64,000 nt of DNA, taken from the IMG/VR virus record IMGVR_UViG_3300028392_001993, positions 1 to 64,000 of that record; one strand, given 5' to 3'. Below the pieces are notes generated by a model. That model ran no database searches, was not told the DNA's origin, and saw nothing but the letters and a program-made list of their open reading frames with translations. How positions within the stretch are numbered: position 1 is the stretch's first letter; every line of letters begins with the position of its first letter. Shown in pieces: positions 39,562 to 63,648 of the stretch. The DNA comes from a virus. The translations under genes were made by a program, and so were the position numbers.

Positions 39562-39636
39562 CTGGCGTTCGTTCAACGGATAGGACACGATTCTTCTAAA
39601 GTCGTTATAGAGGTTCGATTCCTCTACGCCGGACCA
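39562..39636 (+). tRNA. tRNA-Arg (TCT)
   Basis: Acceptor CTGGCGT/ACGCCGG, anticodon loop CTTCTAA, T-arm AGAGG-TTCGATT-CCTCT, encoded CCA. Its 3' end overlaps the end of the minus-strand oxygenase gene by 13 nt. Confidence 0.9.
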
Positions 39637-40163
39637 AATCCTGATACTGTGATAGCAATGCGCGGAACAGTGATATTTTCTACATTGTGAATTTTTGTAA
39701 CGTCAATGTAATGCCATCTGTGATGTTCTAGGATCACGGAATCTGTCAATTCAATGTCATTGAGAGAAATTGCCTCGTTAGTTTTACTAGGCCGAATATC
39801 AGGATTCAGTTTATGTTTATAAAAACATGTGGTGGCTGTGGAATCAGTTAGTATATAATTGATTGCAAATATTCTAGGATAATCCATATGAGGATAAATT
39901 CTATCACCATCAAACATGCAATGTATCCTGGCTTGCCATACATTTTTATTTACTATTTCTTGATCATTTAACCAAGAGATCAATTGCTTTGGTGGTAGGT
40001 ATTGTTTGTATTGAGCAAAATTTTTTCGAGGATAGTCAACACTGATTTGATCAATGTTACTTACTACTGGCCATTTAAGATTAGGTTCTAAATTATCAAA
40101 GTCCAGGCACATGGCTTCTAATTCAATTGGTAATTTTGGATAGTCAAGATATTTGTACAACAT
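39624..40163 (-). CDS. 2OG-Fe(II) oxygenase-like protein (179 aa)
   Basis: Iron-binding H-x-D in I-Y-P-H-M-D-Y-P-R, with a distal His and Arg in I-H-N-V-E-N-I-T-V-P-R-I-A (His, then Arg nine residues later, as for 2-oxoglutarate binding). Typical double-stranded beta-helix layout in 179 residues. ATTAAATA on the minus strand lies five bases before the ATG, predicting a leaderless transcript. Its 3' end is antisense to tRNA-Arg. One of four such proteins here; hydroxylation target unknown. Confidence 0.78.
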   Translation of the reverse strand: MLYKYLDYPKLPIELEAMCLDFDNLEPNLKWPVVSNIDQISVDYPRKNFAQYKQYLPPKQLISWLNDQEIVNKNVWQARIHCMFDGDRIYPHMDYPRIFAINYILTDSTATTCFYKHKLNPDIRPSKTNEAISLNDIELTDSVILEHHRWHYIDVTKIHNVENITVPRIAITVSGFGPA

Positions 40164-41127: not shown

Positions 41128-41361
41128 ATGAACAAATATATAGAAAAAATCCCACGCAGTTTTGCCAAGGTGCTGAGCTGGCGTATTATCATTATTGGTC
41201 AATACATTGGCATTGGGTATTTTACTACCGGTAGTCTTGCATTTGGTGTTGGCCTTGCTGGGGTCACCACTGTGGTAAACAGTTGCCTGTATTTTTTCCA
41301 CGAACGTGCTTGGAACCGGGCAGGATGGGGCAAAGATGCAGTCACTCCTGCTGTCGAATAA
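41128..41361 (+). CDS. DUF2061-like membrane protein (77 aa)
   Basis: I-P-R-S-F-A-K-V-L-S-W-R-I-I-I-I-G-Q-Y, a second hydrophobic segment (G-S-L-A-F-G-V-G-L-A-G-V-T) and the family-typical F-H-E-R-A-W-N-R-A-G-W-G-K end. Two membrane spans with the C-terminus cytoplasmic is the usual picture. The transcript should be leaderless. It overlaps the following PP-loop gene by 26 nt. Role unknown. Confidence 0.75.
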   Translation: MNKYIEKIPRSFAKVLSWRIIIIGQYIGIGYFTTGSLAFGVGLAGVTTVVNSCLYFFHERAWNRAGWGKDAVTPAVE

Positions 41362-42562
41362 AGATCGTTATGGTTACTATACTGTGGGCAAGTTCAAAAC
41401 CTACAGCAAACTAGAGGCCATAGAACACAGCGGAAAAGTTCACCTGCCGGTCAAGTGGAACTTCAACTGTGACACATTTGAAAAGTTTGACTGGACACAA
41501 GAACCTCCGGGTAGTCTAGACTTTTGGTATGCGGCTCGTGCTAGGCAAATAAGAGAAAAATACGATTATCTTGTGCTGTGGTATTCCGGCGGCGCAGATA
41601 GTCATAATGTTCTCATGAGCTTTGTAAAAAATAATATCTTCATTGACGAGATTGCACAATTTCATAACTTAGCCGGTGAAAAAGGCAACAAGCAATCCTG
41701 GGTCAATGAAGAAGTATTTGCGACTTCAATTCCTACTACTCAGTCCCTAATAGAAAACAATCCTGTATATCGCAACACAAAACACAGACTAGTAGACTTG
41801 TCAGAGTTAGAATTTGATCTACTAAAAATAGACGATAACAAGTGGGATTACTTTTACAAAGTCACAAGATTTCTTAGCCCCAATACTCTAGCGCGAAGTT
41901 ACAAAAGAGAACTTATCCCTGACTATCAGATCTTGATGGATCAAGGCAAAAGCGTTTGTTTTATACATGGCTCTGAAAAGCCCAAGGTAGAAAATCGAAA
42001 CAACAAATGGTACATGGTGTTCAACGACTGCTTGGACAATGTGGTAACCCCAAGAACGCAGATGTTAAATCGAGAGTGGGAACATGATGAATTATTTTAC
42101 TGGTCAGACGAACTGCCACAACTGGTTGCCAAACAAGCACATGTGATCAAAAAGTTCATGTCTCAACTTACTCCCGACAAAGCTGACAATGTGAATGTGT
42201 TTAGCGATCAACGCAGTAAAAAAATTCCCGATATTTCATACAGCAATATTGTAATTGATTCTGTTGAATACCGGCTTCTGCCCGACGGCTTACATCAACT
42301 GATCTATCCTGACTGGAATCCTAACTTTATTGTGTGCGGCAAAACCCCCAGTGCCGCATATAGCAATAGAGATACCTGGATGTTTGATAGTATTGCTCCT
42401 GATCTAGGACAACGTTATTATAACCGTGGGTTATTGCATCTTAGACAACTAGTGAAACGTGCCAATCCAGACTATTGGTTTGAATATCCATATGATCCTG
42501 CATCCGGTATTCCTTATAATGGTGGCATGCAACACATGTACAACCGATACTGTATAACTTAA
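41336..42562 (+). CDS. PP-loop ATPase, ~400-aa phage family, copy 1
   Basis: Shared layout of three proteins here (copies at 42563 and 51815): an N-terminal ~80 residues with G-Y-Y-T-V-G-K-F-K-T-Y-S-K-x-E-A, W-N-F-N, R-A-R-Q-I-R-E-K-Y-D-Y, then the P-loop L-W-Y-S-G-G-A-D-S-H-N, I-D-E, and later Y-W-S-D-E-L-P-Q-L, Q-A-H-V-I-K-K-F. Members adenylate a substrate using ATP. ATG 41336 chosen because it precedes the first conserved block. No cysteine motif for thiolation is obvious. Product unknown. Confidence 0.82.
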   Translation: MQSLLLSNKDRYGYYTVGKFKTYSKLEAIEHSGKVHLPVKWNFNCDTFEKFDWTQEPPGSLDFWYAARARQIREKYDYLVLWYSGGADSHNVLMSFVKNNIFIDEIAQFHNLAGEKGNKQSWVNEEVFATSIPTTQSLIENNPVYRNTKHRLVDLSELEFDLLKIDDNKWDYFYKVTRFLSPNTLARSYKRELIPDYQILMDQGKSVCFIHGSEKPKVENRNNKWYMVFNDCLDNVVTPRTQMLNREWEHDELFYWSDELPQLVAKQAHVIKKFMSQLTPDKADNVNVFSDQRSKKIPDISYSNIVIDSVEYRLLPDGLHQLIYPDWNPNFIVCGKTPSAAYSNRDTWMFDSIAPDLGQRYYNRGLLHLRQLVKRANPDYWFEYPYDPASGIPYNGGMQHMYNRYCIT

Positions 42563-43753
42563 ATGAGTTCAATAAAATTAGAAAACAATCCCAAACTAGG
42601 GTATTATAAAGTAGGCGACAAAACGTTCTACAGCAAGCCCGAGGCCTTGGTCGAAGCAACCAAAACCAATCAGTTTCCTGAGTGGAATTTTAGCCGCCAC
42701 ATCTTTGATGCAGTGAACTGGCTGGTAGAACCGCAGACTGATCTGCGTATGTTGTATCGCATACGTGCTCAACAACTGCGTGACCGGTATGACTGGATTA
42801 GAGTAGAAGCCAGCGGCGGCGGCGATTCAACCACTGCGGTGTTGAGTTTTCTCAACAATGGCATTCACCTGGATGAAGTTGTGTTTCGTTATCCCAAGAC
42901 CGGAGAGAAGGATGTACACAACGACCCATTCAATACCAAGTGTGAAAACACTCTAAGCGAATGGGAGTTTGCTGCCAAGCCCTTGCTACAATGGATTGCC
43001 ACTCACCACTCCACAGTAAAAATTACTGTGCATGACTATTCAGAAAACATGCTGGAAGGTGGGGCAGACGAAACTTGGGTGTTCAACAGCAAAGATTATT
43101 TTCAACCAGGACATGCATTCAAGCACGACAACATTGGCTTGATCGATCATCGTCGTGATGCAGATGCAGGCAAGAGCATTTGTGTGTTGTATGGCATCGA
43201 CAAACCCAAGATGTGTATCCGAGATGGCCGTTGGTTTGTGTACTTTATGGATCTACAGGCCAATCATTCTAATTCTGTAGTGTACGAATACACCAACATC
43301 ACCAACGAGTATTTTTACTGGACCCCGGACTTGCCTGAGATTATACACAAACAGGCACACATCATCAAGAACTGGTTTAGTCTTCCGCAGAATCAATTCT
43401 TACAATATCTAGTGCGTTGGCCCAATCACTCTATTGCTAATCGTACTGCATACGAAGCCATGGTCAAACCCTTGATCTATCCAGACTATGATCCTGCTAC
43501 ATTTCAAGTTGCCAAGCCTACCAACAGTTTTTACAACGAAATGGACTTTTGGTTCTACAAAAACTTTCAAGAAACTCGAGCGTTCCAAATCTGGGAAGCA
43601 GGTTTAAAACTGTTGGTGGACAACATTGATTTGAAATATTTTAACACTGAACTAGGACGTCCTGTGGGGTTCATAGGATTCCTCAGCCCATTCTACGATT
43701 TGGGTCCGGCTCAATATGTAAACACCGGGGTGAATAATTTTTCAAAATTCTAA
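42563..43753 (+). CDS. PP-loop ATPase, ~400-aa phage family, copy 2
   Basis: Directly follows copy 1 (TAAATG). Conserved: L-G-Y-Y-K-V-G-D-K-T-F-Y-S-K-P-E-A, R-I-R-A-Q-Q-L-R-D-R-Y-D, P-loop E-A-S-G-G-G-D-S-T-T, I-H-L-D-E-V, I-D-K-P-K, Y-F-Y-W-T-P-D-L-P-E-I and K-Q-A-H-I-I-K. The P-loop is preceded by V-E-A where the sisters have L-x-Y, a modest change. Two tandem copies followed by a Bug receptor suggest related substrates or a heteromer. Confidence 0.82.
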   Translation: MSSIKLENNPKLGYYKVGDKTFYSKPEALVEATKTNQFPEWNFSRHIFDAVNWLVEPQTDLRMLYRIRAQQLRDRYDWIRVEASGGGDSTTAVLSFLNNGIHLDEVVFRYPKTGEKDVHNDPFNTKCENTLSEWEFAAKPLLQWIATHHSTVKITVHDYSENMLEGGADETWVFNSKDYFQPGHAFKHDNIGLIDHRRDADAGKSICVLYGIDKPKMCIRDGRWFVYFMDLQANHSNSVVYEYTNITNEYFYWTPDLPEIIHKQAHIIKNWFSLPQNQFLQYLVRWPNHSIANRTAYEAMVKPLIYPDYDPATFQVAKPTNSFYNEMDFWFYKNFQETRAFQIWEAGLKLLVDNIDLKYFNTELGRPVGFIGFLSPFYDLGPAQYVNTGVNNFSKF

Positions 43754-43921
43754 TAGAGCATAAGTAGAATCAGCAACGCCGATACAGTATCGACGTCGGA
43801 AACATATTGACGCCTGGGGTAGCGAAACCCTTTTACTGGTGTGTTACACATAGAACGCCGATCTCCGTAGCAGATTCTCTGCAAGCTCTTAAACTTATTG
43901 ACACTAACTTTAGGAGAAATC
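43754..43921 (+). other. 168-nt intergenic leader with hairpins
   Basis: No gene seen. CGATA-CAG-TATCG (about 43781-43793) and GGGT...ACCC followed by TTTT (43817-43834) could fold; the latter is a weak terminator candidate. A good TTTAGGAGA Shine-Dalgarno ends the leader before the Bug receptor. Confidence 0.4.
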
Positions 43922-44836
43922 ATGTCAAAAATTCTAGCAACCTTGTTGGCTGCCATTGCCATCACCGCGGCTCAGGCTCGCGAAAACATCACAATCTTGT
44001 ATGCTTACAGCGCAGGTGATTCAGTAGCCAACTACCATCGAACCATTGCCAACGAAGCAAACAAGATCCAAGACCGATATAACTTTGTATTTGATGCCAA
44101 ACCCGGGGCCGGAGGTGCTATTGCATCCAACCAGGCACTGGGCACACCAAATACTATCTTGGCACACTCAACTGCGTTCTTTGTTCGTCCAGTTGTGTTT
44201 CCCAACGAAAGTTACGACATTGCTCGATTCCGGCAACAATACGTTCACTGTATGGCGCCCATGGCAGTGACCAGCAGTCGATATCGATCGCTGAAAGATG
44301 TTCCTACCACGGCTACCGTGGGTATCAGTGGCTTGGGAGTTACCACACACCTGGCTGCAATTGAACTCAAGAAAAAGTTTCCTGACCTGAACATTATCCC
44401 ATTCAAATCAACCACAGACTCAATGTTGAGCATGGTGGGTGGGCAAACTGACTTGCACATTGGTTTTATATCAGAAGCAGAGCAATGGAGCCGGGATAAT
44501 ACCAGCAGTGATCGCAAGGTCTCTGTGTTGGGTATTACTGGCAACAAAACAGTCAACGGTTATACTCCCCTGGCAAAACTGGGTCTTGATCCCAGTTTCG
44601 CTGACATGAATGTGGGGCATCACATGGTGCTTCCTGTCACAATTGATGATGCAAAACGCAAAGAGTTTTATGAAATTTTTGCCAAGGCCTCTCGAACAGA
44701 TGCAGTACGTGCGGCCTATGCTGTGGACTATTGCGAACCACAATCAGTCAAGTACGAAGACTTAAACAAGTTTTTTGTGTTTCATACTGAGTACTGGCGC
44801 AAATTGGCCAGTCAAGTTAAACTAGACAACAAGTAA
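43922..44836 (+). CDS. Bug/TctC-family periplasmic binding protein, copy 1 (304 aa)
   Basis: Signal peptide M-S-K-I-L-A-T-L-L-A-A-I-A-I-T-A-A-Q-A with a plausible cut after A-Q-A. Mature part has the family layout: F-D-A-K-P-G-A-G-G-A-I-A-S-N (the P-G-G/A-x-G ligand loop), T-A-T-V-G-I-S-G-L-G, L-S-M-V-G-G-Q-T-D-L and P-L-A-K-L-G-L. Bug proteins bind carboxylates in the periplasm of proteobacteria. A phage copy is unusual; two PP-loop genes are immediately upstream. Role during infection is unknown. Confidence 0.83.
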   Translation: MSKILATLLAAIAITAAQARENITILYAYSAGDSVANYHRTIANEANKIQDRYNFVFDAKPGAGGAIASNQALGTPNTILAHSTAFFVRPVVFPNESYDIARFRQQYVHCMAPMAVTSSRYRSLKDVPTTATVGISGLGVTTHLAAIELKKKFPDLNIIPFKSTTDSMLSMVGGQTDLHIGFISEAEQWSRDNTSSDRKVSVLGITGNKTVNGYTPLAKLGLDPSFADMNVGHHMVLPVTIDDAKRKEFYEIFAKASRTDAVRAAYAVDYCEPQSVKYEDLNKFFVFHTEYWRKLASQVKLDNK

Positions 44837-44862
44837 ACACATCGGCAGATTCCCTGACTACT

Positions 44863-44870
44863 TATAAATA
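44863..44870 (+). promoter_or_regulatory. T4-late-type promoter element TATAAATA
   Basis: Exact TATAAATA 19 bases before the ATG at 44890; unlike many others here it leaves a ~14-base leader with TTAGGAA. Confidence 0.65.
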
Positions 44871-44889
44871 TAGCAGTTAGGAATTTGCT

Positions 44890-45069
44890 ATGAGCCGGAC
44901 ATTGATCTGGGTGTTGAGTTGGAGTGTGTTAGGACCAGTGCCTGAGTCGGGCGAACAAGCCAAGTTCAAAACTCAAGCAGAATGCGAACAGGCTCGAGTT
45001 CAAAAGCGTGAAGAATACCAGGCACAGAAAAAACAGATTGTGGCTAGTTGTCACCAGAGTACCAAATAG
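44890..45069 (+). CDS. Small protein with N-terminal hydrophobic segment (59 aa)
   Basis: ATG 44890 after TTAGGAA. Hydrophobic start M-S-R-T-L-I-W-V-L-S-W-S-V-L-G, then a charged helix with A-E-C-E-Q-A-R-V-Q-K-R-E-E and a late V-A-S-C-H. A small exported or anchored protein with two Cys, similar in layout to the 38678 product. Ends just before the tmRNA promoter. Confidence 0.6.
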   Translation: MSRTLIWVLSWSVLGPVPESGEQAKFKTQAECEQARVQKREEYQAQKKQIVASCHQSTK

Positions 45070-45070
45070 T

Positions 45071-45099
45071 TTGACATCAAATCAATTTTGTGGTATAAT
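45071..45099 (+). promoter_or_regulatory. Perfect consensus promoter of the tmRNA
   Basis: TTGACA (45071-45076), 17 bases, TATAAT (45094-45099); expected +1 near 45106. Confidence 0.8.
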
Positions 45100-45105
45100 A
45101 AATAC

Positions 45106-45466
45106 TTGAACAGCGTAAACTGTTACTGAGAAAAGGATTCAAGACCCGGGGGCAGTGCCCGGCAGGTCCACCATAAGCATACTTAAATCTCTACAAAACC
45201 GAAAGGTTGGGATCAGGGCTGGTACACCGGATTACTCTAGGGAAACCTATAAGTGCGGATAGACCATAGTATGCTTTTGATGGGCCTGACACAGGATCGA
45301 TTGGGTCAAGAGTACAAGTAATGGCGCTCGGTAGGCGATGACCGTTAATCAAGCAAAACAAGTATCTGCAAACGATGATACATACCTCTTAGCCGCAAAC
45401 GCCTAAGAGCGAGGCAGTTATGCCTTGTAACCAAAAATAGCAATAGGGACTTCGGTCCCTATTTTT
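45106..45466 (+). ncRNA. ssrA: Circularly permuted two-piece tmRNA
   Basis: The acceptor piece comes first: CCGGGGGCAGTGCCCGG (T-arm with a non-standard loop), CAGGTCC, A, CCA (45171-45173). A 108-nt intervening segment follows, closed by AAGCATACT/AGTATGCTT. The coding piece begins GGGCCTG at 45282. GGGCCTG pairs with CAGGTCC in all seven positions with G3-U70, the alanine identity pair. GGGTC (coding) pairs with GACCC (acceptor) and AGTAA with TTACT as helix P2. The tag frame 45368-45406 reads ANDDTYLLAANA and stop. The T-arm loop resembles alphaproteobacterial permuted tmRNAs (from memory). tmRNA rescues stalled ribosomes. Confidence 0.88.
45442..45466 (+). terminator. Rho-independent terminator of the tmRNA
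   Basis: AATAGGGAC, TTCG loop, GTCCCTATT and a T-run; nine base pairs. Confidence 0.88.
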
Positions 45467-46079
45467 ATGGGTATTGCCAAGTCCAGGAGCCATCTTGCTT
45501 ATAAAGTCGTGTTCTTCCTTTAACTTTAGCAGATAGTTTAGAGGCACCTTTTCTGCCATTTTCTGCCGCAGTTGGATTAGGCAATCCTTTATTCCACGGA
45601 GTCGCACCTTTATTTCTGGATACAGACGATGTATAATTTGAACCATTAAATTTTGCGGCACAGGATTGACTACACCAAGCCTTTTCTCTAATCGGGTGAT
45701 GACAAAACTCTATCTTACCAAATAAGTTAGAACATTGAATGCAGGTGTATTGTCGTGTCTCTTTTGGTCTAGTTTTAGTGCGTTTATTTTGAGCAGATAA
45801 CAATTTTGAATGCTCTATCCTTGCCTTCTCGTAATGTCTGTTCGAATACTTCTTTAATCTGCCCATTAGATTTACAGCATGCCATAATGTTCCGCCGTGT
45901 ATCTTCGCTAATAATATATGGGCTATATAATGCTCACGAGCAGTTAGATCAACCAAGTTAGAAGGTTCGTTAGTTCCTCCTAAACACTTTGGAATAATAT
46001 GGTGTTCTTCTTTGTAGCCAGTAGTAGTTCTAAGTTTGGCTCTTTCTATCAGCGATGTATAATGGTTTAAATAATTCAT
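45465..46079 (-). CDS. HNH homing-type endonuclease with zinc ribbon (204 aa)
   Basis: HNH core near the N-terminus: Y-K-E-E-H-H-I-I-P-K-C-L-G-G-T-N-E-P-S-N-L-V-D-L. Then a zinc ribbon: Y-T-C-I-Q-C-S-N-L-F and W-C-S-Q-S-C-A-A-K-F-N, and a Lys/Gly-rich C-terminal repeat (R-N-K-G-A-T-P-W-N-K-G) of NUMOD type. The C-S-Q-S-C-A-A module is shared with the HNH at 58634. CATAAATA five bases before the ATG predicts a leaderless late message. It lies tail to tail with the tmRNA. Confidence 0.85.
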   Translation of the reverse strand: MNYLNHYTSLIERAKLRTTTGYKEEHHIIPKCLGGTNEPSNLVDLTAREHYIAHILLAKIHGGTLWHAVNLMGRLKKYSNRHYEKARIEHSKLLSAQNKRTKTRPKETRQYTCIQCSNLFGKIEFCHHPIREKAWCSQSCAAKFNGSNYTSSVSRNKGATPWNKGLPNPTAAENGRKGASKLSAKVKGRTRLYKQDGSWTWQYP

Positions 46080-46130
46080 AACTTTATTTATGCTTTCGTA
46101 GCCTAATATACCTCGTAACAGAAACCACCA

Positions 46131-46152
46131 AACCCGCTTCGGCGGGTTTTTT
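46131..46152 (+). terminator. Rho-independent terminator
   Basis: AACCCGC, TTCG, GCGGGTT and six Ts. There is no plus-strand gene just upstream, so it may stop read-through antisense to the HNH gene. Confidence 0.8.
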
Positions 46153-46158
46153 AATTTG

Positions 46159-46166
46159 TATAAATA
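46159..46166 (+). promoter_or_regulatory. T4-late-type promoter element TATAAATA
   Basis: Exact TATAAATA 20 bases before ATG 46187, leaving a leader with TTAGGAG. Confidence 0.6.
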
Positions 46167-46186
46167 AATGATATTAGGAGTATAGC

Positions 46187-46510
46187 ATGAGCACCGATTT
46201 TTTAAAAAAATACATCGATATCATCAATGAAGCAGAACAACCACAAGTTCAACTTGATGAAGATGGTCCTTACAGCAAAAAGCAAATTAACTGGGTTATA
46301 AAATACAACCAGCATGACAAGTATGAGGGCAAGGGCGCAGTCTTTAATGTAGATTCCACTGCTAGAAAGGTACGTTGGAAACAACCTCTTAACTATGACG
46401 TAAAGGAATTTGAGAAGGTCGGCTTGGACGTATGGGACCGGAAATTGCGTCAAGCAGTCACTAACGCAGTCTTGGCCCAAATGCCCCCTGCCCCTGGGTA
46501 CGACAACTAA
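46187..46510 (+). CDS. Hypothetical protein (107 aa)
   Basis: Own late promoter, Shine-Dalgarno and terminator, so a single-gene unit. N-terminal F-L-K-K-Y-I-D-I-I-N-E-A-E looks like the capsid-type leader helices of T4-like phages; the rest has Q-I-N-W-V-I-K-Y-N-Q, K-V-R-W-K-Q-P-L and a helical tail ending Q-M-P-P-A-P-G-Y. Function unknown; a late product is likely. Confidence 0.65.
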   Translation: MSTDFLKKYIDIINEAEQPQVQLDEDGPYSKKQINWVIKYNQHDKYEGKGAVFNVDSTARKVRWKQPLNYDVKEFEKVGLDVWDRKLRQAVTNAVLAQMPPAPGYDN

Positions 46511-46526
46511 TTTTCACAAACACCAG

Positions 46527-46550
46527 AACCCGCTTCGGCGGGTTTCTCTT
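46527..46550 (+). terminator. Rho-independent terminator
   Basis: AACCCGC, TTCG, GCGGGTT, then T/C-rich tail; same stem-loop as at 46131. Confidence 0.75.
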
Positions 46551-46601
46551 GTCAACCCTTTCGAGGGCTAAGGCGTTGTATATGTATGTCAAGGAGACAT
46601 C

Positions 46602-46766
46602 ATGCAACATGCTATCAAATGTGACAATTGGGGAAAACCCGGCAAAAATGAAGTGGTGAGATTCATGCCTGTTAACTTGGCCAGGTTTAGAAACTGCCCA
46701 GACTGTGATCGTAAACGAATCACTGCTTGCAAAGATCCTGCTTGCAATCGAACCCGAAAGCCTTGA
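46602..46766 (+). CDS. Small zinc-ribbon-like protein (54 aa)
   Basis: ATG 46602 six bases after AAGGAG. Cys pairs C-P-D-C (in F-R-N-C-P-D-C-D-R-K-R) and two further Cys (T-A-C-K-D-P-A-C-N-R) give a four-Cys knuckle that could bind zinc. Basic overall. Its stop codon overlaps the -35 box of the next promoter. Possibly a small regulator; family not recognised. Confidence 0.5.
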   Translation: MQHAIKCDNWGKPGKNEVVRFMPVNLARFRNCPDCDRKRITACKDPACNRTRKP

Positions 46767-46791
46767 CTCTTATACAATTCTCATATATAAT
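46763..46791 (+). promoter_or_regulatory. Sigma-70-like promoter, ATG at +1
   Basis: TTGACT (46763-46768), 17 bases, TATAAT (46786-46791), six bases, ATG 46798. Confidence 0.72.
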
Positions 46792-46797
46792 ACACTT

Positions 46798-46875
46798 ATG
46801 AAACAAACAACTACAATCGTTACAATCGTTCGCTCAGAACATGAGTGGGATTGCCATTGGGGGCTTTGCCTGTAA
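46798..46875 (+). CDS. Leaderless 25-residue peptide before a terminator
   Basis: M-K-Q-T-T-T-I-V-T-I-V-R-S-E-H-E-W-D, then C-H-W-G-L-C-L. The start codon is the predicted +1 and a strong terminator follows 23 bases after the stop, so this is a ~130-nt transcript. It may be an attenuator-type leader peptide or an unrelated short RNA; the unit at 55993-56202 has the same plan. Confidence 0.4.
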   Translation: MKQTTTIVTIVRSEHEWDCHWGLCL

Positions 46876-46898
46876 TACGAAAGTACTACCCTGCAAAG

Positions 46899-46926
46899 AC
46901 CCTCCACTTCGGAGGGTTTTCTTTTT
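46899..46926 (+). terminator. Rho-independent terminator
   Basis: ACCCTCC, 5-base loop, GGAGGGT, then TTTTCTTTTT. Confidence 0.85.
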
Positions 46927-46931
46927 AGTGC

Positions 46932-46960
46932 TAGACCATAAATTGAAACTCTGCTACAAT
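46932..46960 (+). promoter_or_regulatory. Promoter of the 1.2-kb structured RNA region
   Basis: TAGACC (46932-46937), 17 bases, TACAAT (46955-46960); follows a terminator, and no gene starts within the next 1.2 kb. Confidence 0.55.
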
Positions 46961-47269
46961 AGAACTTAACAAAGCAACAAAGTAGATCGATACTAGTTGT
47001 AACAGATCTTTAAAAATCGTATTTCATTTAGTCCTGGTAACAGGGACTATATGAGAACACATTAGGGTTACCAGACCCGTTAGAGGCATTGGTAGAAGTG
47101 AATTGACACCGGCGGGTGTCCACTTGCTACCAGTCATGAAGCCGGCTCTCTACTGTAAAAAGTAGATCCAGAAAAGCGGCGGATCGTCTGGCAGTAATGA
47201 CCGTGGTGACTTGGTCTCGCAAGCCAAGCAGAACGAGATCCACAACGGTTCCCAAATGTTTTTTCATAT

Positions 47270-47345
47270 GGTGGGTTCATCTAGAGGCCTAGGATAGTGC
47301 CCTTTCACGGCATTCACACCGGTTCGAATCCGGTACCCACTACCA
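47270..47345 (+). tRNA. tRNA-Glu (TTC)
   Basis: Acceptor GGTGGGT/ACCCACT (G1-U72), anticodon loop CTTTCAC, T-arm ACCGG-TTCGAAT-CCGGT, encoded CCA. Lies inside the structured RNA region; a 13-bp stem begins five bases after its CCA. Confidence 0.9.
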
Positions 47346-47785
47346 TACGAAAACACACTGGAGATAAGCAGGAACTTGTGGCCACGAGGTCGCCTCGTCC
47401 AGTGTGTTTTTATATGGTCACTATATAGAAATACATTGCCGAGGAGCGACGTCTTTACCATGGGCTCCGACCATAAAGAGAGGTAGTGTGTTTCTATATA
47501 GCAATCATATAGAAGTATTCTTGGCATAAGTCAAAGCGAGAGAAGAAGCCTAGTATCTGCAGATGCGAAAGTTTCAGTGGTGCAAGTCCCCTCCTAGGCC
47601 TGCTGTTGAGAGTGCTTCTATATGGTAGATGTTATAGTCAAGCATCGATAAGGTATCGTGTATGGACGCATACACTATTCGGGTCACAGCGGCCGGCGAC
47701 TGATCCTAATATAACTGCATCGGCTTTTGCACTCTTAGCGGAGGACGCATAAATTGGCATTCTCGGTGCTTGACTATGATATTTT

Positions 47786-47860
47786 GGTCTGATAGTATAT
47801 CGGTTAGTATCCCACACTGTCACTGTGGGGAGACGGGTTCGATTCCCGTTCAGACCGCCA
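47786..47860 (+). tRNA. tRNA-Asp (GTC)
   Basis: Acceptor GGTCTGA/TCAGACC, discriminator G, loop CTGTCAC, T-loop TTCGATT, encoded CCA. Within the structured RNA region. Confidence 0.93.
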
Positions 47861-48184
47861 AGTTTGAAGCCACACCGCCTGGGCACTTCTCTCAGTAATG
47901 AGACACTAGGTCCTGCAACCGTGGCTTCTCCCCAACGTTCCAGCGTCACTGGATAGTCTGACCCAGACGATGAGAAGTGTGATGACACACACGGGTGGTT
48001 CTGAAACGGCGAAGTTTCACTGAGCAATCAGCGGTCTAACCTAACCGGCGTTGGCAATACGAGAACGGTCCCTGTCGAGAAGCGGGTGGAAGGTGTGACG
48101 AAAATACTTGTGTGGCAGTCCATGACGAGCCTAACAAATTTTCTATCTCACTATAATTACCGCCGGGGGACGCAGAGCACTTGA

Positions 48185-48421
48185 TCAAGCAGTGTGCTGA
48201 GCATTTGCGTACTCAATCCATTCTGAATTGATCTTGCCAGCATCGCCATTGTGAGATGCAGGGTCTGCATCGGGGTTGGCATTTTTCCATTCATTGTAAA
48301 CTTTAGTGGCTTCGTGCCAGTTTTGTTCACGAGCGGCATCATCTTTTATCCACGCATCAAAATCAAGTTTACCGTCATCAAATGTCCAAACACGTTTGTT
48401 AAAATCTGTCCAAGTTGCCAT
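48185..48421 (-). CDS. Small hypothetical protein (78 aa)
   Basis: MATWTDFNKRVWTFDDGKLD, then W-I-K-D-D-A-A-R-E-Q-N-W-H-E-A and a helical tail. GGATAAATA and AGGAG precede the start. Acidic and Trp-rich; no family recognised. It follows the radical SAM gene on the same strand. Confidence 0.55.
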   Translation of the reverse strand: MATWTDFNKRVWTFDDGKLDFDAWIKDDAAREQNWHEATKVYNEWKNANPDADPASHNGDAGKINSEWIEYANAQHTA

Positions 48422-48442
48422 AATATTTCTCCTGTGCAGTAT

Positions 48443-49645
48443 TTATCCGTTACGGGCAATCCAATCAGCCCAGAGCGCATGCCACTCTGGGAATACTTCA
48501 GCAAAACTTTCACTGCGGAGTTGGTCAAGTTTAGCATTATGATACCAAAACGATATTTGTTTTTCGTGGGTGTAATCCGGAGGAGTCCCCATCAAAAACT
48601 TAACAACTTCTCTAAATCGATCAATGGTTTTGAATTTTTCAGCCACTTTGAGTTTGAGTTCGTAAGGCATATATTGAATATTGTTGTGGGGTTCGTCTAA
48701 TACATAATTTTCAAAACTTATGGGCCATTTGCGTTTGAGCCCTTCGGCGTGTAGTTCATCCATGTCAAACACATTTAAAATAGTGGGACTGCAACGAATG
48801 TGTGTTTTTATGTTTGGATACGGGGCTACGTCTATTAGATACTTGTCAGTTACTGCTAGAACTTCGTCCCATTTGCTACCGTAACGTAAATAATCGTTTT
48901 TTGCCCCTACCCCATCAATACTGATAGCAAAATTAACCAGTTTGAATTCTTTGAAGTAGTCTACCAACTTAGGATCATAGATTGTGCCATTGGTATGTGT
49001 TCCGAGTATTTGATTCTTGGCGCCACCTGTACTGACTGCAGACTCTAGGATTTTGTAACTTAACGGAATCATCAATGGTTCGCCACCGTACAAGTCCCAA
49101 AATACCAGTTCTTTTTGCCACTCATCAAATGTGGCTTCAAGAGGTTTGTTATTTTTGTAGATAGTGGTATGAGGTTCCCATTTTTTTAACCAAATCTTAA
49201 ACGGTTTATCGTAGCCATCGTCCTTGTCAAATTCGTAGGCATCTTTGAACCACGATGTACTGGTAATTTCGTTGCAACTACGGCAGGCGTTGTTGCATTG
49301 TATGCCCGGTTTAATTATGATGACCCGGGGCTGATCTGGATGCGATTCAACATCAGCAAAGTCTAGATTTACTTGTTGCCGCATACTAACAACACCAATT
49401 TCCTCTTTCTGCCAACAACTATCACATTCTTTAATGCGTTCACCGTTTTCTAAATGTTGAACAAATTCTTGTCTATGCGGAGACTTCCACACCCGTTTAA
49501 GATCATCGTTAACATCAAACATATGATGATGTTCTGCTGTGGTATCTTTGTACCACCAGGTGCAAATCGGACAGGGACTGACCATGCCACTCATATCCAA
49601 CATAAGAGATAGTTCAGCAAGTTTACATTTGGTATCGTATTTCAT
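48443..49645 (-). CDS. Radical SAM protein with N-terminal twitch domain (400 aa)
   Basis: N-terminal cysteine domain first (S-P-C-P-I-C-T-W-W, then I-K-E-C-D-S-C-W-Q), a twitch/SPASM-like arrangement, then the core with I-Q-C-N-N-A-C-R-S-C (C-x3-C-x2-C) and W-D-L-Y-G-G-E-P-L. Also I-S-I-D-G-V-G in the barrel. ATG 49645 is preferred to an in-frame GTG 18 bases upstream because GTTAAATA lies five bases before it. Divergent from the B12-type radical SAM gene at 49749. Substrate unknown. Confidence 0.87.
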   Translation of the reverse strand: MKYDTKCKLAELSLMLDMSGMVSPCPICTWWYKDTTAEHHHMFDVNDDLKRVWKSPHRQEFVQHLENGERIKECDSCWQKEEIGVVSMRQQVNLDFADVESHPDQPRVIIIKPGIQCNNACRSCNEITSTSWFKDAYEFDKDDGYDKPFKIWLKKWEPHTTIYKNNKPLEATFDEWQKELVFWDLYGGEPLMIPLSYKILESAVSTGGAKNQILGTHTNGTIYDPKLVDYFKEFKLVNFAISIDGVGAKNDYLRYGSKWDEVLAVTDKYLIDVAPYPNIKTHIRCSPTILNVFDMDELHAEGLKRKWPISFENYVLDEPHNNIQYMPYELKLKVAEKFKTIDRFREVVKFLMGTPPDYTHEKQISFWYHNAKLDQLRSESFAEVFPEWHALWADWIARNG

Positions 49646-49748
49646 AACTATATTTAACGACACAACCTTTTGGTAATTTAATTAAAGTCATCCCCCCAAG
49701 GATGAGAAGTGCTATGACAAAAATCATCTGGTAAATATATCACGCAAC

Positions 49749-51704
49749 ATGACAGATTCTAAAAAACAAATTTTCGAAATTAAAACAGTTTCTGACAACG
49801 AGCCTGTGGTAATTGAAAATTCAATGGGCGAAAATTCGCCACATTTGGCCATACTAGAAACCATTGGTACTCTGAGTCGCGGTAGGCCTCAAAAAAATCT
49901 AGATCGAATAATTATCAATCCAGTTACAAAACAAACACGAGTAGCAATGGTATTGCTTCCTTATTGGTCCATACACCACGCACCGTATAATATTGCACGT
50001 CTGGTAGGTTTGGCAAAGGCTGCAGGATTTAGCAGTTGTGCATTTGACGTCAATGTGGAAACTTACAATTTAACAGACAAAAAAGAATTATGGCATTCAT
50101 ACCTGTCTTGGAAATGGGAACAGCCGGAATATTACTATGCAGATATACATCCGTTCATTGAATCTACTCTGTTAGATCAAATTGACAAGATTGTAGAATT
50201 CAAGCCAGATGTCATTGGATTTAGTATATACTATTGTAATAATGAGACTGTGGCCTGGGCGGTGCCAAAGATCAGAGAAAAGTTACCTAATGTAAAAATA
50301 ATAGTGGGCGGATCTCAAGTGATCCAAGGAAAACTTAAATATGCAGAATTATTTGATCACGTGGTCAAAGGTGAAGGAGAACAAGTGTTCCTTGACATCC
50401 TAGAGAAAATTGAAAACAAAACACCTATCTCTGAACGCTTTCTAAGTTATCCTAAAGATCAACGCATTGATCTAGATTCCATGCCGTGGCCAGACTACGC
50501 AGACTTTGACTTGAGTTTGTATCAGTATGGTGCTGCCGTAGGGTCAGAAATCAGTCGAGGGTGTATAGCAAAATGCGAGTACTGTATTGAAACACAATTT
50601 TGGCGTTATCGCGGCAGAGTTGCTACCACAGTAGTTGATGAAATTGAATATCAGTACAAAACATTTGGCGTTAGAGCCATACACTTTGTTGACAGTTTGG
50701 TCAATGGTAATTTAAAAGAGTTAAGAGCATTTGCACTCGGAGTAGTAGCAAAGGGCATGACTGACCTTGCATGGGCCGGTTATGCTCGATCCGACGGTCG
50801 AATGGATCTTGCATATCTGCAGGATTTAAAAAATGGTGGGTGTCACTTTTTAAATTTTGGAGTAGAGTCGGGTAGCAACAAGACACTTGCATTGATGAAG
50901 AAAAATGTCACCCGAGAAGAGATGGAACAAAATTTTAAGGATCTCAAAACAGTAGGCATTAACGCTTACAGTAATTGGATTGTTGGATTTCCCGGAGAGG
51001 AAATCGCCGACGTTGCAGACTCGTTGATTTTTTTATGGCGCACCAGAGATACTGCCATACGTCATTATAGTTTAAACTTATGTTACAACGAGCCGGGCAC
51101 TCCATTGGGAACCAATCCTGACAAGTTTAATATCAGTAGCACTGAGTGGGCCGGCAAATGGATCACTAAAGATTATCGCAATACCAATATACACCGACTG
51201 ATTAGATATAAATCTTTGTTAATATTCACCGCTCACATGCGTCGACATTTGGTTCGACCACACGAAGGTTGGGGGCTTGGGGGTATGGAACGTTACAATT
51301 TTGAAAATCACTACACGTTTTTGTACGATCCGAAGAATGCAAGAAATGTTATAGACTACGACGATTTTGATTACAACATTATAAAAATCAATGTCAATCC
51401 CGTGGCCGATAGTATGGTTAACGAAATATGGCCTTTGCTGAGAACTTTGTATCTTGCCTGGGGTGCATACGAGTTTAGTGTACGTTTTGATCAAGACGAG
51501 GATTTTAAAGAATTTGGAAATCAATTTGTTTTTTCGCCAACTTTTGAAGAAAAATTTAAATTCGATGGCAACGTTTGGTTTAAGATTGATGCCGCTGGCA
51601 ATTGGCAGGCCAAATTAGATTATGTATTTGATTCTGCTATTCCCAACTTGAACTTTGATCTACATTTTGATGAGACGGGAAATTGGGAAAGAATTTCCCG
51701 ATAG
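49749..51704 (+). CDS. B12-binding-type radical SAM protein (651 aa)
   Basis: N-terminal ~60 polar residues, then a Rossmann-like domain (V-A-M-V-L-L-P-Y-W-S, K-I-I-V-G-G-S-Q) of the cobalamin-binding kind, then G-C-I-A-K-C-E-Y-C-I-E (C-x3-C-x2-C) and S-N-W-I-V-G-F-P-G-E-E. A ~200-residue C-terminal part is unassigned. Similar in size to the protein at 26976 but clearly diverged. GGTAAATA lies 11 bases before the ATG. Possible methylase or ring-forming enzyme. Confidence 0.85.
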   Translation: MTDSKKQIFEIKTVSDNEPVVIENSMGENSPHLAILETIGTLSRGRPQKNLDRIIINPVTKQTRVAMVLLPYWSIHHAPYNIARLVGLAKAAGFSSCAFDVNVETYNLTDKKELWHSYLSWKWEQPEYYYADIHPFIESTLLDQIDKIVEFKPDVIGFSIYYCNNETVAWAVPKIREKLPNVKIIVGGSQVIQGKLKYAELFDHVVKGEGEQVFLDILEKIENKTPISERFLSYPKDQRIDLDSMPWPDYADFDLSLYQYGAAVGSEISRGCIAKCEYCIETQFWRYRGRVATTVVDEIEYQYKTFGVRAIHFVDSLVNGNLKELRAFALGVVAKGMTDLAWAGYARSDGRMDLAYLQDLKNGGCHFLNFGVESGSNKTLALMKKNVTREEMEQNFKDLKTVGINAYSNWIVGFPGEEIADVADSLIFLWRTRDTAIRHYSLNLCYNEPGTPLGTNPDKFNISSTEWAGKWITKDYRNTNIHRLIRYKSLLIFTAHMRRHLVRPHEGWGLGGMERYNFENHYTFLYDPKNARNVIDYDDFDYNIIKINVNPVADSMVNEIWPLLRTLYLAWGAYEFSVRFDQDEDFKEFGNQFVFSPTFEEKFKFDGNVWFKIDAAGNWQAKLDYVFDSAIPNLNFDLHFDETGNWERISR

Positions 51705-51727
51705 TTTTTACATATAAGTAAGAATAC

Positions 51728-51802
51728 CGCGGGGTGGAGAAGAGGTAACTCACTAGGCTCATAATCTAGAGATCGGCGGTTCGATTCCGTCTCCCGCAAC
51801 CA
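51728..51802 (+). tRNA. Initiator-type tRNA-fMet (CAT)
   Basis: 5' end CGCGGGG against TCCCGCA gives the C1xA72 mismatch that marks bacterial initiator tRNAs; loop CTCATAA; T-loop TTCGATT; encoded CCA. The anticodon stem (CTAGG/TCTAG) lacks the three G-C pairs of classical initiators, so initiator function is likely but not certain. Confidence 0.82.
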
Positions 51803-51814
51803 ATTCCCAAACTA

Positions 51815-53011
51815 ATGAAATTTTTTGAAGATACATCTGCCTCATCTGATGATGTAAAGCATCATGGTTTTTACATTGTCAATGGCAAAAATTATCTGTA
51901 TCGGTACAATGCACTGGTGGCGGCCACACAGGCCAAGTGCGAACTAGAGTGGCGCTTCAATGACGAAGTGTACAATAGCATAGATTGGTCTATACCACTA
52001 AACAAACCCATACTTGAAATTTATCGTGAGCGGGCACAACAACTGCGTGACAAATACGACTATCTAATTCTTTCTTATAGTGGCGGGTCTGACAGCGACA
52101 ACATTCTTCGTGCGTTTGTGGACAACAATATACATCTTGACGAAGTGTGGATTGACTGGCCACACGGCATAATGGACAAAACTGGATTTAAACCATCTTT
52201 TGATTTGAGTCATGAGAATCTTGCCAGCGAATGGCACTACACCATTGAACCTAAACTTCGAGAGTTGGCTAAAAATCATCCCGGGGTAAAAATACACATA
52301 TCCGATACCACAAGTCAGGGTATTGTAGATGACCTTGAGGACACTTCTGTTATTGTGGGATTTAGAACATCTTACCAAAACATAAGACGCATGAGGTATA
52401 TTTGCAATTATCAACAAAATATGTACGACAACGGTATTGATGTTGCACTTGTATCCGGTATAGAGAAACCATCAGTGACACTAACCCCCGATAACATGAT
52501 TGCGGCGGTGTTTCATGAGTTACCGACTGTTTTTAAAAACGATGTCACTCCGGATCGCCACACTGTGATAGAATATTTTTATTGGACACCTGAGTATCCG
52601 CATATTGTAGTAAACCAAGCGCACGAACTCATAAGATATTTTCAACAGCACGTGGAAGAATTTAAAAATTTAGAAGAGCACTTGAGAACTAATAAATATG
52701 CAATACACCGCTCGATGAGTCTAGATCGAGCTGTGAACATATCCTGTTATCCTACTTGGGATAACTGTTTTCAAACAGATAAATTCTTCTACACATTTGC
52801 CAGTAATCAGTTCAACAAATTGTTGATCCCGTTTATTCGCACAGAACAATTTGCTAAAACATACTATCATCGTTACTTCAATGATGCCAACATCATTGAT
52901 CCCAAACTGATTTTTCATCCGGTTTACAAGAATCGATCAAAAGTTTGTTACAAATATTATCCCGTTATGAGTTTACAAAAATTTTATCAAGGAGTCGTTA
53001 GAAATGTTTAA
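51815..53011 (+). CDS. PP-loop ATPase, ~400-aa phage family, copy 3
   Basis: Starts 12 bases after the tRNA-fMet CCA with no Shine-Dalgarno. Same layout as copies 1 and 2: G-F-Y-I-V-N-G-K-N-Y-L-Y, W-R-F-N-D, R-E-R-A-Q-Q-L-R-D-K-Y-D-Y, P-loop L-S-Y-S-G-G-S-D-S-D-N, I-H-L-D-E-V, G-I-E-K-P, Y-F-Y-W-T-P-E-Y-P and N-Q-A-H-E-L-I. It overlaps the second Bug receptor by 8 nt, repeating the PP-loop/Bug order of 42563-44836. Confidence 0.82.
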   Translation: MKFFEDTSASSDDVKHHGFYIVNGKNYLYRYNALVAATQAKCELEWRFNDEVYNSIDWSIPLNKPILEIYRERAQQLRDKYDYLILSYSGGSDSDNILRAFVDNNIHLDEVWIDWPHGIMDKTGFKPSFDLSHENLASEWHYTIEPKLRELAKNHPGVKIHISDTTSQGIVDDLEDTSVIVGFRTSYQNIRRMRYICNYQQNMYDNGIDVALVSGIEKPSVTLTPDNMIAAVFHELPTVFKNDVTPDRHTVIEYFYWTPEYPHIVVNQAHELIRYFQQHVEEFKNLEEHLRTNKYAIHRSMSLDRAVNISCYPTWDNCFQTDKFFYTFASNQFNKLLIPFIRTEQFAKTYYHRYFNDANIIDPKLIFHPVYKNRSKVCYKYYPVMSLQKFYQGVVRNV

Positions 53012-53960
53012 AAATATCATCAGTATTGTTTGTTTGCTATTTGCCATGGCCGCTAATGCAACAGAGATGCCAGCAGAGCTAAAAGGCAAGACTATTCGAT
53101 ATGTTGTGCCCACGGCACCAGGTTCACTGAGTGATGTGCGTTCACGTGAAGTGCTTGACGTTGTATCAAAGCAAACTGGACTGACATTTGTGATCACTTA
53201 CAAACCAGGCAATAAAAACGGGGTTGGCATGCAAACCATTGCAGAGTCAGCACCCGATGGCCTGACCATGGGTTGGACCAGTTCGCCCACACGCATCATC
53301 TACGATCTCAAGAACGCAACTGGCTTCCCCAAGCGTGATGAGCTTGTGCCGTTTGTGAATCTTTGGAAATTCTCCAATGTGGTATCTGCAGATGTCAATG
53401 CACCGTTTAATACCATGCGAGAGGCTTTGACGTATATTCGAGCAAATCCAAACCGACTAAACTATGCTCAAGTTGATGCAGTATCAGCTATTACACTAGA
53501 AAGATTGTTCAACAACGACAATAAAGACACAGTGGTTGGTATTCCAATGACCACCTTTCCCGAAGCAATTGCATTGATGAAAAACAAACAGATGACTTTT
53601 ATTGCCACTAGCATTGGATACGCACAAGACAATGCCTCACACATCAAGATGTTGGCCACCACTGGCGCCACAAGACATTCAACATTGCCTAACATTCCCA
53701 CTGTGGGAGAGTTTGTGCCAGGATTTGAAATGCCATCATATGGTTCAGCATTTTTGCCACGTGGTGTACCACAACACATCTTGAACTACTACAATGAAGT
53801 GTTTGTGACTGCACTGCGTAATCCTGAGTTACAGTCCAAAATGCGAACCTGGGAATACGAACCTTGTGTAGATAATCTAGCACAGACACAGGCAGTATAT
53901 GATCGAGAATATGTGCGCTTTGACCGTATGATCAAACAAACCAAGATTGAAATCAAATGA
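53004..53960 (+). CDS. Bug/TctC-family periplasmic binding protein, copy 2 (318 aa)
   Basis: Signal peptide M-F-K-N-I-I-S-I-V-C-L-L-F-A-M-A-A-N-A, then K-T-I-R-Y-V-V-P-T-A-P-G-S-L-S-D (ligand-loop position), Y-K-P-G-N-K-N-G-V-G, L-A-T-T-G-A-T-R and L-P-N-I-P-T-V-G-E-F-V-P-G-F-E typical of Bug receptors. Diverged from copy 1. Translated with the PP-loop gene (8-nt overlap) and with the SDR downstream (ATGA). Binds a small carboxylate in family members; the ligand here is unknown. Confidence 0.88.
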   Translation: MFKNIISIVCLLFAMAANATEMPAELKGKTIRYVVPTAPGSLSDVRSREVLDVVSKQTGLTFVITYKPGNKNGVGMQTIAESAPDGLTMGWTSSPTRIIYDLKNATGFPKRDELVPFVNLWKFSNVVSADVNAPFNTMREALTYIRANPNRLNYAQVDAVSAITLERLFNNDNKDTVVGIPMTTFPEAIALMKNKQMTFIATSIGYAQDNASHIKMLATTGATRHSTLPNIPTVGEFVPGFEMPSYGSAFLPRGVPQHILNYYNEVFVTALRNPELQSKMRTWEYEPCVDNLAQTQAVYDREYVRFDRMIKQTKIEIK

Positions 53961-54499
53961 AAGTTGCAATCACCGGACACTCTCGAGGACTTGGCCGTGT
54001 GTTGTGGGATAGATTTGCGGCACAGGATGATGTAGAGCTAGTGGGCTTTTCAAGAAGCAACGGCTACGACATTGTCAAGGCACAAGATAAAATTGTTGCA
54101 GAATCACTTGACTGTGATTTGTTTATCAACAATGCCTACAATGGCTTTGCCCAGGTGGATCTCTTGGTCAAGATGGTGGATGCTTGGAAACACCAGCCCA
54201 ACCGACACATTATTAATGTCAGCAGTTTGTCATCGTATCACGACAAACGCAGAATGTGGCCTTATAGCATACACAAGATTGCACTAGACCGACAAGCAGA
54301 ACAGATTCAATCAAACTTTTTGTGGCCCAAGGTCATTAACTTTCGTCCTGCACTATTTGAAAGCGATATGGGCTACTCTAGTGAGTTCAATCGCTGGCGT
54401 CAGAAAATTCCCGTAGATACCATGGCCGATGTGGTGATGTACACTGTTGACAATCGGCACCGGTTTACCATCAAGGATATAGTTGTCGATCACGCCTGA
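53957..54499 (+). CDS. Short-chain dehydrogenase/reductase-like protein (180 aa)
   Basis: N-terminal T-G-H-S-R-G-L-G (T-G-x3-G-x-G), then F-I-N-N-A-Y (N-N-A-G-like), N-V-S-S-L-S-S and catalytic Y-S-I-H-K (Y-x3-K). Shorter than usual (~250), missing much of the C-terminal substrate region. Likely NAD(P)-dependent; acts with the upstream genes by overlap. Its 3' end overlaps the convergent oxygenase gene by 29 nt. Confidence 0.82.
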   Translation: MKVAITGHSRGLGRVLWDRFAAQDDVELVGFSRSNGYDIVKAQDKIVAESLDCDLFINNAYNGFAQVDLLVKMVDAWKHQPNRHIINVSSLSSYHDKRRMWPYSIHKIALDRQAEQIQSNFLWPKVINFRPALFESDMGYSSEFNRWRQKIPVDTMADVVMYTVDNRHRFTIKDIVVDHA

Positions 54500-55067
54500 C
54501 ATCCATGGCCTTTAGTCGAGCAATGGTTGGCGAGTCGTCCCAGAATCCAATCTGAATAGCAGTTCTACCACCGTCAGGCATGGGTTCAATTGAGTGTAAT
54601 ACCTGTGCATTGATCAAGTACCATTCACCTACAGGCATACGATGTCTGCAAATTTCTGTCAAGTTATCATAAGTCTTTGGATACTCTTTCACAAGGGGTC
54701 TAATGTAAGGCTTGCCTTCTTCCAGCCAGTGGATTGTGTCCACTGCTGGTCCACCTGTTTGCAACAACCAAATCAGTGTCCAGTTACGACTTGTGTCATG
54801 ATGTGGACAGGCCCAGCCAGCGCCATGAATACTTACCCCGATATCGGTGTAGTCTGTGCCCACATGTTCGTGTACCCAATCTTTGATACCTTGACTGACA
54901 TCGAACCTGTCATAGGGTGTGTTGATAAATTTAATGCCTTTGCGTGTGCAGATGCGATCTATTTGTTTGGCCAATTGTTTGCTGGTATCATAAGCGTCTG
55001 GTGCTTCATAAAGCTCGCGTGGCAGTGGGGGGAGATCTGGAAAGATCATGAGTTCTTCTGGAGTCAT
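54471..55067 (-). CDS. 2OG-Fe(II)/aspartyl hydroxylase-like protein (198 aa)
   Basis: H-x-D in C-P-H-H-D-T-S-R-N-W, the distal His in I-N-A-Q-V-L-H-S-I-E-P and Arg in G-G-R-T-A-I-Q-I, matching the iron and 2-oxoglutarate ligands of cupin-fold oxygenases. Transcribed from the minus half of a palindromic TATAAATATTTATA, back to back with another oxygenase gene. Target unknown. Confidence 0.78.
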   Translation of the reverse strand: MTPEELMIFPDLPPLPRELYEAPDAYDTSKQLAKQIDRICTRKGIKFINTPYDRFDVSQGIKDWVHEHVGTDYTDIGVSIHGAGWACPHHDTSRNWTLIWLLQTGGPAVDTIHWLEEGKPYIRPLVKEYPKTYDNLTEICRHRMPVGEWYLINAQVLHSIEPMPDGGRTAIQIGFWDDSPTIARLKAMDVRRDRQLYP

Positions 55068-62481: not shown

Positions 62482-62556
62482 CGGCCTTTAGTTCAACGGA
62501 TAGAATACGTGGCTTCGAACCATGTGATGGGAGTTCGATTCTCTCAGGGTCGGCCA
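62482..62556 (+). tRNA. tRNA-Arg (TCG)
   Basis: Acceptor CGGCCTT/AGGGTCG with wobble pairs, loop CTTCGAA, T-loop TTCGATT, discriminator G, encoded CCA. Overlaps antisense the end of the radical SAM gene. Confidence 0.9.
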
Positions 62557-63597: not shown

Positions 63598-63648
63598 ACA
63601 ATATTTACTCACTATTATCCTCATAGAAAAATTCAATAACAAAATGCC

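Follow-up and report, generated by a model that had tools for sequence, protein, structure and literature searches.

The DNA analyzed here, referred to as the window, comprises 64,000 nucleotides (nt), which are positions 1 to 64,000 of the IMG/VR virus record IMGVR_UViG_3300028392_001993, and it carries a repeated gene module, in which PP-loop proteins (PP) are combined with Bug/TctC-type receptors (Bug). The complete source record involves 178,197 bases and represents a T4-like jumbo phage. Its phage identity follows from matches of the major head protein, the portal and the DNA polymerase, and the head protein shares 66% identity with its counterpart in the Pseudomonas jumbo phage PA5oct. 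Tail-sheath Pfam families were too insensitive as phage marker. The module genes and their closest neighbors are organized as follows:

41306..42562, + strand: PP1, PP-loop protein 1 (GTG start, or ATG at 41336; motif SGGADS)
42563..43753, + strand: PP2, PP-loop protein 2, which begins directly after PP1 (SGGGDS)
43922..44836, + strand: Bug1, Bug/TctC-type receptor 1 (Sec-type signal sequence, MSKILATLLAAIAITAAQA; assigned by clade profile)
51815..53011, + strand: PP3, PP-loop protein 3 (SGGSDS; predicted AsnB/beta-lactam-synthetase-like fold, no glutaminase)
53004..53960, + strand: Bug2, Bug/TctC receptor 2 (signal sequence; 8 nt overlap with PP3)
53957..54499, + strand: short-chain-dehydrogenase (SDR)-like protein (4 nt overlap with the end of Bug2)
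54471..55067, - strand: HxD...H protein, a possible neighbor on the strand opposite to the module

An original prediction, made from the letters of this DNA, had placed three PP-loop proteins of one family and two Bug/TctC receptors in this region, with PP3 overlapping Bug2. This inventory was correct and even understated the situation. All five module genes are open at these positions, and PP1 and PP2, which are 26% and 28% identical to PP3, belong to one family with it. With PP3 as tblastn query, PP2 was recovered at E 2.5e-38 and PP1 at E 3.3e-24. Since PP3 and Bug2 as well as Bug2 and the SDR-like gene overlap, the region 51815-54499 may be read as a single transcription unit. The SDR-like gene matched adh_short below the cut-off (E 3.2e-5), and a homologue of it is located two genes after Bug-PP in the related locus L194.

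To define the distribution of the module, we scanned viral contigs with the three PP proteins and obtained 331 PP relatives, of which 79 distinct loci were retained. These records are metagenomic and mostly fragments, and flank length limited the linkage counts. The counts refer to 67 distinct PP genes together with flanks of 1.5 kb, and we defined a neighbor as the directly adjacent gene on the same strand within 300 nt. Here, we found that Bug was the direct neighbor of 30/67 PP genes versus 15/308 other genes in these loci (Fisher p 3e-15), and, conversely, that PP was the direct neighbor of 32 of the 46 distinct Bugs. The gap was an overlap or at most 25 nt in 27 of the 30 cases, the overlaps being upper bounds, since open reading frames (ORFs) were taken from their first start codon. 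When gene order was shuffled within loci, 2000 runs gave a mean of 12.2 and a maximum of 21 PP-Bug adjacencies, compared with the 30 observed. In addition, 20 of the 67 PP genes adjoin another PP gene. The original prediction had named uniqueness of the pairing to one genome as the finding that would speak against it; instead, the pairing is recurrent, with 45 distinct abutting or overlapping pairs, of which 25 have PP first and 20 have Bug first.

The coupling was also visible at the level of whole records. TctC was present in 33 of 42 PP-bearing records, but in only one of 20 records that are related by capsid and lack PP (p 2.6e-8). The absence of PP from these 20 records, which are related by head protein, depends on the same profile that detects PP in PP-bearing genomes. 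In a tree of 110 PP proteins, calculated with FastTree, adjacency to Bug changed at least 32 times, a count that truncated loci may inflate, and adjacency to TctA/B changed 6 times. The frequent changes of Bug adjacency indicate that the linkage arose repeatedly and does not go back to one inherited event. PP and Bug are coupled in these genomes beyond chance.

Permease genes occur in the same surroundings. Full-length TctA was found in 9/44 related records and TctB in 5/15, whereas DctM was absent from all 44 records. The following blocks combine these genes with the module:

L194: porin-TctA-Bug-PP; L195 is the same with one extra gene
L213: Bug-TctB-TctA-PP
L212: TctB-TctA-Bug-PP
L017: TctA-Bug-PP-PP
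L226 and L234: Bug-DctP-x-x-PP-TctB-TctA

The presence of a permease in the same block argues for a transport system with an enzyme, which is more than a curious pairing. When TctA was scanned for independently of PP, 19 distinct loci were obtained, 7 of them with PP and 8 with Bug. Porins of the Porin_4 family are part of some of the permease/PP blocks, and the relatives that the L194 porin has on plasmids all belong to Burkholderiales, an order in which orphan Bugs (lacking TctA/TctB) are common. The porin relatives on plasmids and this Bug expansion suggest hosts in the Burkholderiales.

Bug2 matched PF03401 (TctC) with an E-value of 1.7e-32 (113.5 bits, cut-off 27). Bug1 alone stayed just under this cut-off (E 1.1e-5, 25.6 bits), but its clade profile A6 matched the solved tripartite-tricarboxylate (TTT) receptors TphC, TBP, BugD and Bug27 (1.9e-20 to 3.2e-14). 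The AlphaFold2 model of Bug2 reached a mean pLDDT (predicted local distance difference test) of 93 and aligned with the TTT receptor 5oei over 293/299 residues (VIA Z 34.2). It matches TTT receptors whose solved structures contain oxoadipate or terephthalate, and Z drops from 29 to 16.7 outside the family. Judged by this model, Bug2 is an intact TTT receptor with a two-lobed fold, for which carboxylate binding is predicted. A simple hydrophobicity rule, rather than a trained predictor, assigned signal-like N-termini to 91 of 92 distinct phage Bugs, but to none of 107 PP proteins. The best identity of a phage Bug to bacterial plasmid copies was 29%, and Bug2 as single-protein query gave no match in the viral collection.

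For PP3 we obtained an AlphaFold2 model with a pLDDT of 85 and a predicted TM score (pTM) of 0.89. Its best structural match was AsnB (1ct9; VIA Z 11.4, root-mean-square deviation (rmsd) 5.4, 291 residues), followed by human ASNS (Z 11.2), beta-lactam synthetase (10.1) and carbapenam synthetase (8.7). Matches of the AsnB/ASNS/beta-lactam-synthetase type span Z 11.4-8.5, and the remaining PP-loop enzymes scored about 7.6 and lower, with LarE, NAD synthetase and TilS at about 7. Among viral models, the close structural relatives of PP3 were exclusively uncharacterized proteins of uncultured Caudovirales. In the model, the SGGxDS motif lies between strand 83-87 and helix 92-102 of a Rossmann-like core. 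An N-terminal nucleophile (Ntn) glutaminase domain is missing: upstream of the synthetase part there are only about 60 residues, and none of 107 PP proteins begins with MC, which would provide the nucleophilic cysteine. A structure prediction of the N-terminus had been proposed as a check; these 60 residues form a hairpin and helices inside the AsnB-aligned range and might be a shrunken glutaminase remnant. The exact motif is present in 100 of 107 distinct members, and in 110 distinct members the PP-loop residues and the C-terminal Lys323 are conserved to more than 90%. The most conserved positions are R78, S89, G91, D93, D109, E139, G215-x-D/E-K218, F255 and K323; the last of these may correspond to the lysine that is catalytic in AsnB and beta-lactam synthetase.

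Pfam, NCBIfam, PHROGs and PADLOC contain no named family for these PP proteins, and PP1 had no match in Pfam, PHROG or NCBIfam. A search of PADLOC for a defense reading of the module gave no match either. Pfam matches were lacking in 62 of 63 members. The only one was a weak QueC-like match (E 0.005), which reached 16.5 bits with the QueC equivalog model against a cut-off of 150; apart from it, the QueC and TilS family models (PF06508, PF01171) were not matched. PF00733 (Asn_synthase) was matched by 0/63 members at E 0.01, and the PP profile found no credible match among PDB sequences. Scans of genome collections were pattern based. In 84,980 genomes, one scan pattern gave five PP hits, four in Bacteriovoracales and one in a Methylococcaceae bin. 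The latter hit belongs to a 3 kb contig, probably of phage origin, on which a signal-less DctP and additional PP pieces are encoded as well; the same bin was the only one of 398 Pseudomonadota genomes with a PP match. The family is, in these collections, close to phage-exclusive. Cultured phages contained no match to the PP or Bug proteins of the window and none to a family-centre PP. TctA and DctP matches among cultured-phage records were found in what we take to be host-DNA-like records (Salmonella, E. coli) or unannotated fecal contigs.

In relatives, a gene for DctP, the receptor of tripartite ATP-independent periplasmic (TRAP) transporters, often adjoins the PP/Bug pair (PF03480, E 9.4e-34 to 1.6e-55). 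None of 31 distinct full-length phage DctP proteins has a signal-like N-terminus. In 18 distinct cases DctP is split into an ORF of about 157 residues and an adjoining one of about 162 residues, which begins with MK[IL]RTNRNPVAQ. The junctions vary (14 nt overlap, ATGA, gaps), and junctions of such different kinds argue against a sequencing slip. Two loci (L045:3988-5477, L164:4995-6533) contain one N-half followed by two C-halves. Further examples of phage DctP are L049:10219-11175 and L154:4956-5953. As a conjecture, phage DctP might hold the acid in the cytosol.

We interpret the module as a phage-borne carboxylate uptake-and-activation cassette and assign this reading a probability of about 0.6. 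It builds on what is observed, namely the genes and their architecture, the tight and recurrent linkage, the permease genes of the relatives, and the predicted folds and export signals. TTT receptors bind carboxylates, and AsnB and beta-lactam synthetase convert a carboxylate and ATP to an acyl-AMP, which is passed to ammonia or an amine. Bug would be exported to the periplasm, bind an organic acid and pass it to a TctA/TctB permease, which is phage-encoded in some relatives and presumably the host's here. Once in the cytosol, the carboxylate would be activated by the PP-loop enzyme as acyl-adenylate with release of pyrophosphate, and attack by an amine or ammonia would yield an amide, so that the acid would be trapped or fed into a phage-specific product. 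We infer that the PP-loop enzyme acts on the very acid that is imported, and the amide chemistry, the use of host TctAB, the substrate, the amine and a benefit for infection are inferred in the same way. The original prediction had considered capture or modification of a small acid during infection. The TctA/TctB genes in the blocks of relatives favor capture and import together with ATP-dependent modification; ligand, activity and infection role stay predictions. The occurrence of several divergent PP/Bug pairs in one genome suggests that more than one substrate is used. More tentatively, many jumbo phages might run an acid relay of their own, consisting of porin, Bug, TctAB, a cytosolic and often two-chain DctP, and glutaminase-less amide synthetases, with each PP/Bug pair serving a different acid; this is possible, but we would not bet on it.

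Several observations weigh against the cassette. No direct Bug neighbor was found for 37/67 distinct PP genes, so that a paired receptor may be dispensable for PP, and 12 of the 19 phage TctA loci lack PP within about 10 kb. The record of the window, which may be incomplete, contains no TctA, TctB or DctP. The likeness of PP3 to AsnB is structural only (9% identity at the rmsd of 5.4), a comparison of the PP profile with the E. coli AsnB sequence aligned just the PP-loop motif, and 7/107 distinct members deviate from SGGxDS. A correlation of PP distances with Bug distances across the pairs (rho 0.62, p 0.0005; 0.32 when restricted to divergent pairs) speaks for the coupling, but the Mantel test leaves shared phage descent in it. 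Finally, the PP homologues of Bacteriovoracales sit among other genes and have no Bug. Their chromosomes (L115:5578-16449, L117:5000-16691, L114 and L116) carry one homologue each, which in L115 and L117 is located near membrane proteins with a spermidine-synthase domain and near HTTM proteins. In L114 and L116, a neighboring gene resembles a phage gene family (MFDLFFMSYDEPEAD).

Instead of serving bulk import, Bug could alternatively be a signal or decoy that engages host TctAB or a host sensor kinase in the periplasm, so that uptake of the acid is increased or the permease is blocked, while PP works on a separate host metabolite. BctC, which acts with BctDE in Bordetella, provides a model for such a receptor-kinase contact. 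The record of the window, with Bugs and no TctA, would fit this idea, as would the commonest state among the phages, which is multiple Bugs without a permease. However, a pure signal needs no permease, which shares a block with Bug and PP in several relatives, and the linkage of PP with Bug would be left unexplained; we consider this explanation unlikely. Still less probable is that the PP proteins modify tRNA or nucleobases (TilS, QueC or MnmA type) and are located by chance in a tRNA-rich accessory region. The window does contain 23 tRNA genes, a tRNA-Met ends 13 nt upstream of PP3, and the one weak QueC-like match (E 0.005) points in this direction. However, the top structural matches are enzymes amidating small-molecule carboxylates and not TilS (1ni5, Z 7.2), 62/63 members lack any Pfam match, and PP is strongly linked to transport genes.

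We hold it to be similarly improbable that the linkage reflects mere clustering of unrelated cargo genes in accessory regions. The region is rich in other cargo (radical SAM, SDR and oxygenase-like genes), and the loci were retrieved by their PP genes, with flanks of limited length. Against this, other genes of these loci adjoin Bug nine times less often than PP does (15/308 vs 30/67), overlaps or near-zero gaps recur, the adjacency arose many times, and the capsid-matched control shows co-occurrence across whole records. Little weight also falls on a scheme in which PP amidates an internal carboxylate for hypermodified DNA, a surface sugar or a metal-binding product, with Bug/TctAB importing a precursor or product. 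Carbamoyltransferase- and amidinotransferase-like ORFs in the record (our own reading of the L174-L175 sequences) would suit such a pathway, and so would the spermidine-synthase-domain membrane proteins and a methyltransferase-like gene near PP in Bacteriovoracales. Nevertheless, no recurring gene set for a defined product stands beside the module, and partner enrichment yielded only the oxygenase-like family and small proteins of no assigned function.

The wider surroundings contain additional genes. The 23 tRNA genes cover most amino acids and extend over 39481-62556, with accessory genes between them. Radical SAM-like genes are numerous in the window (4024-5943, 48443-51704, 57153-58187, 62488-63642). 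We also weighed whether those at 48443-51704 belong to the module and decided against it, since such genes are common across the whole record. L175:5275-9018 is also radical SAM-like, and the types found in one phage record are a SPASM and a B12-binding one. A second, shorter PP-loop family is represented at 24708-25541 (+ strand) beside a 301-aa protein without assigned function; it recurs in related phages, and one relative (306 aa) is weakly QueC-like. The HxD...H family has two members in the window (39627-40163 and 54471-55067, both - strand), and in other phages it is enriched close to PP, Bug and TctA genes (11 near, 1 far). The protein at 54471-55067 had no Pfam family above cut-off and no PHROG, and its HxD/H motif makes a 2-oxoglutarate (2OG)-Fe(II) oxygenase possible. 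A phosphate-binding-protein-like receptor is encoded near the module at L184:10246-11247, and L197:12130-13410, between DctP and PP, encodes what we take from its sequence to be a major facilitator superfamily (MFS)-type transporter; both appear to be further uptake genes of these phages.

If the uptake-and-activation cassette is real, phages use defined organic acids around their hosts as nutrients or as building blocks. A widespread phage protein family that is named in no library would obtain its first function, and the receptor would offer, via ligand screening, a direct handle on the substrate of the PP enzyme. A signal-less, split DctP would represent a novel role for a transport receptor. 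For phosphate and nitrogen, phages are known to increase uptake by means of single transport genes. In the literature, apart from a TctA domain hit, we found no paper that connects phages with TTT or TRAP receptors. This hit was described for a viral contig from SUP05 bacteria (PMC4164917), where it is given as a domain hit only, in a passage that names neither a receptor nor a PP-loop partner, unlike the module described here.

When compared with known systems, the phage receptors share fold (Z 29-34), length, signal sequence and Pfam match with the TctC/Bug receptors (PF03401; TphC, TBP, BugD, Bug27, MatC), and cognate TctA/TctB genes, which usually but not obligatorily accompany such receptors, adjoin Bug in phage relatives. 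In contrast to their bacterial counterparts, they are phage-encoded, have genes that are positionally linked with that of a PP-loop enzyme, and are at most 29% identical to bacterial plasmid copies. With AsnB, beta-lactam synthetase and carbapenam synthetase, the best overall structural matches of PP3, the PP family has the PP-loop motif in common, but it lacks the N-terminal nucleophile, shows 7-9% identity and has no Pfam Asn_synthase match. The module resembles PstS-type phage uptake genes in that the phage supplies a periplasmic receptor for better uptake by the host. It differs from PstS in that its receptor belongs to a TTT system, that permease and porin genes may accompany it, and that a dedicated PP-loop enzyme is part of it.

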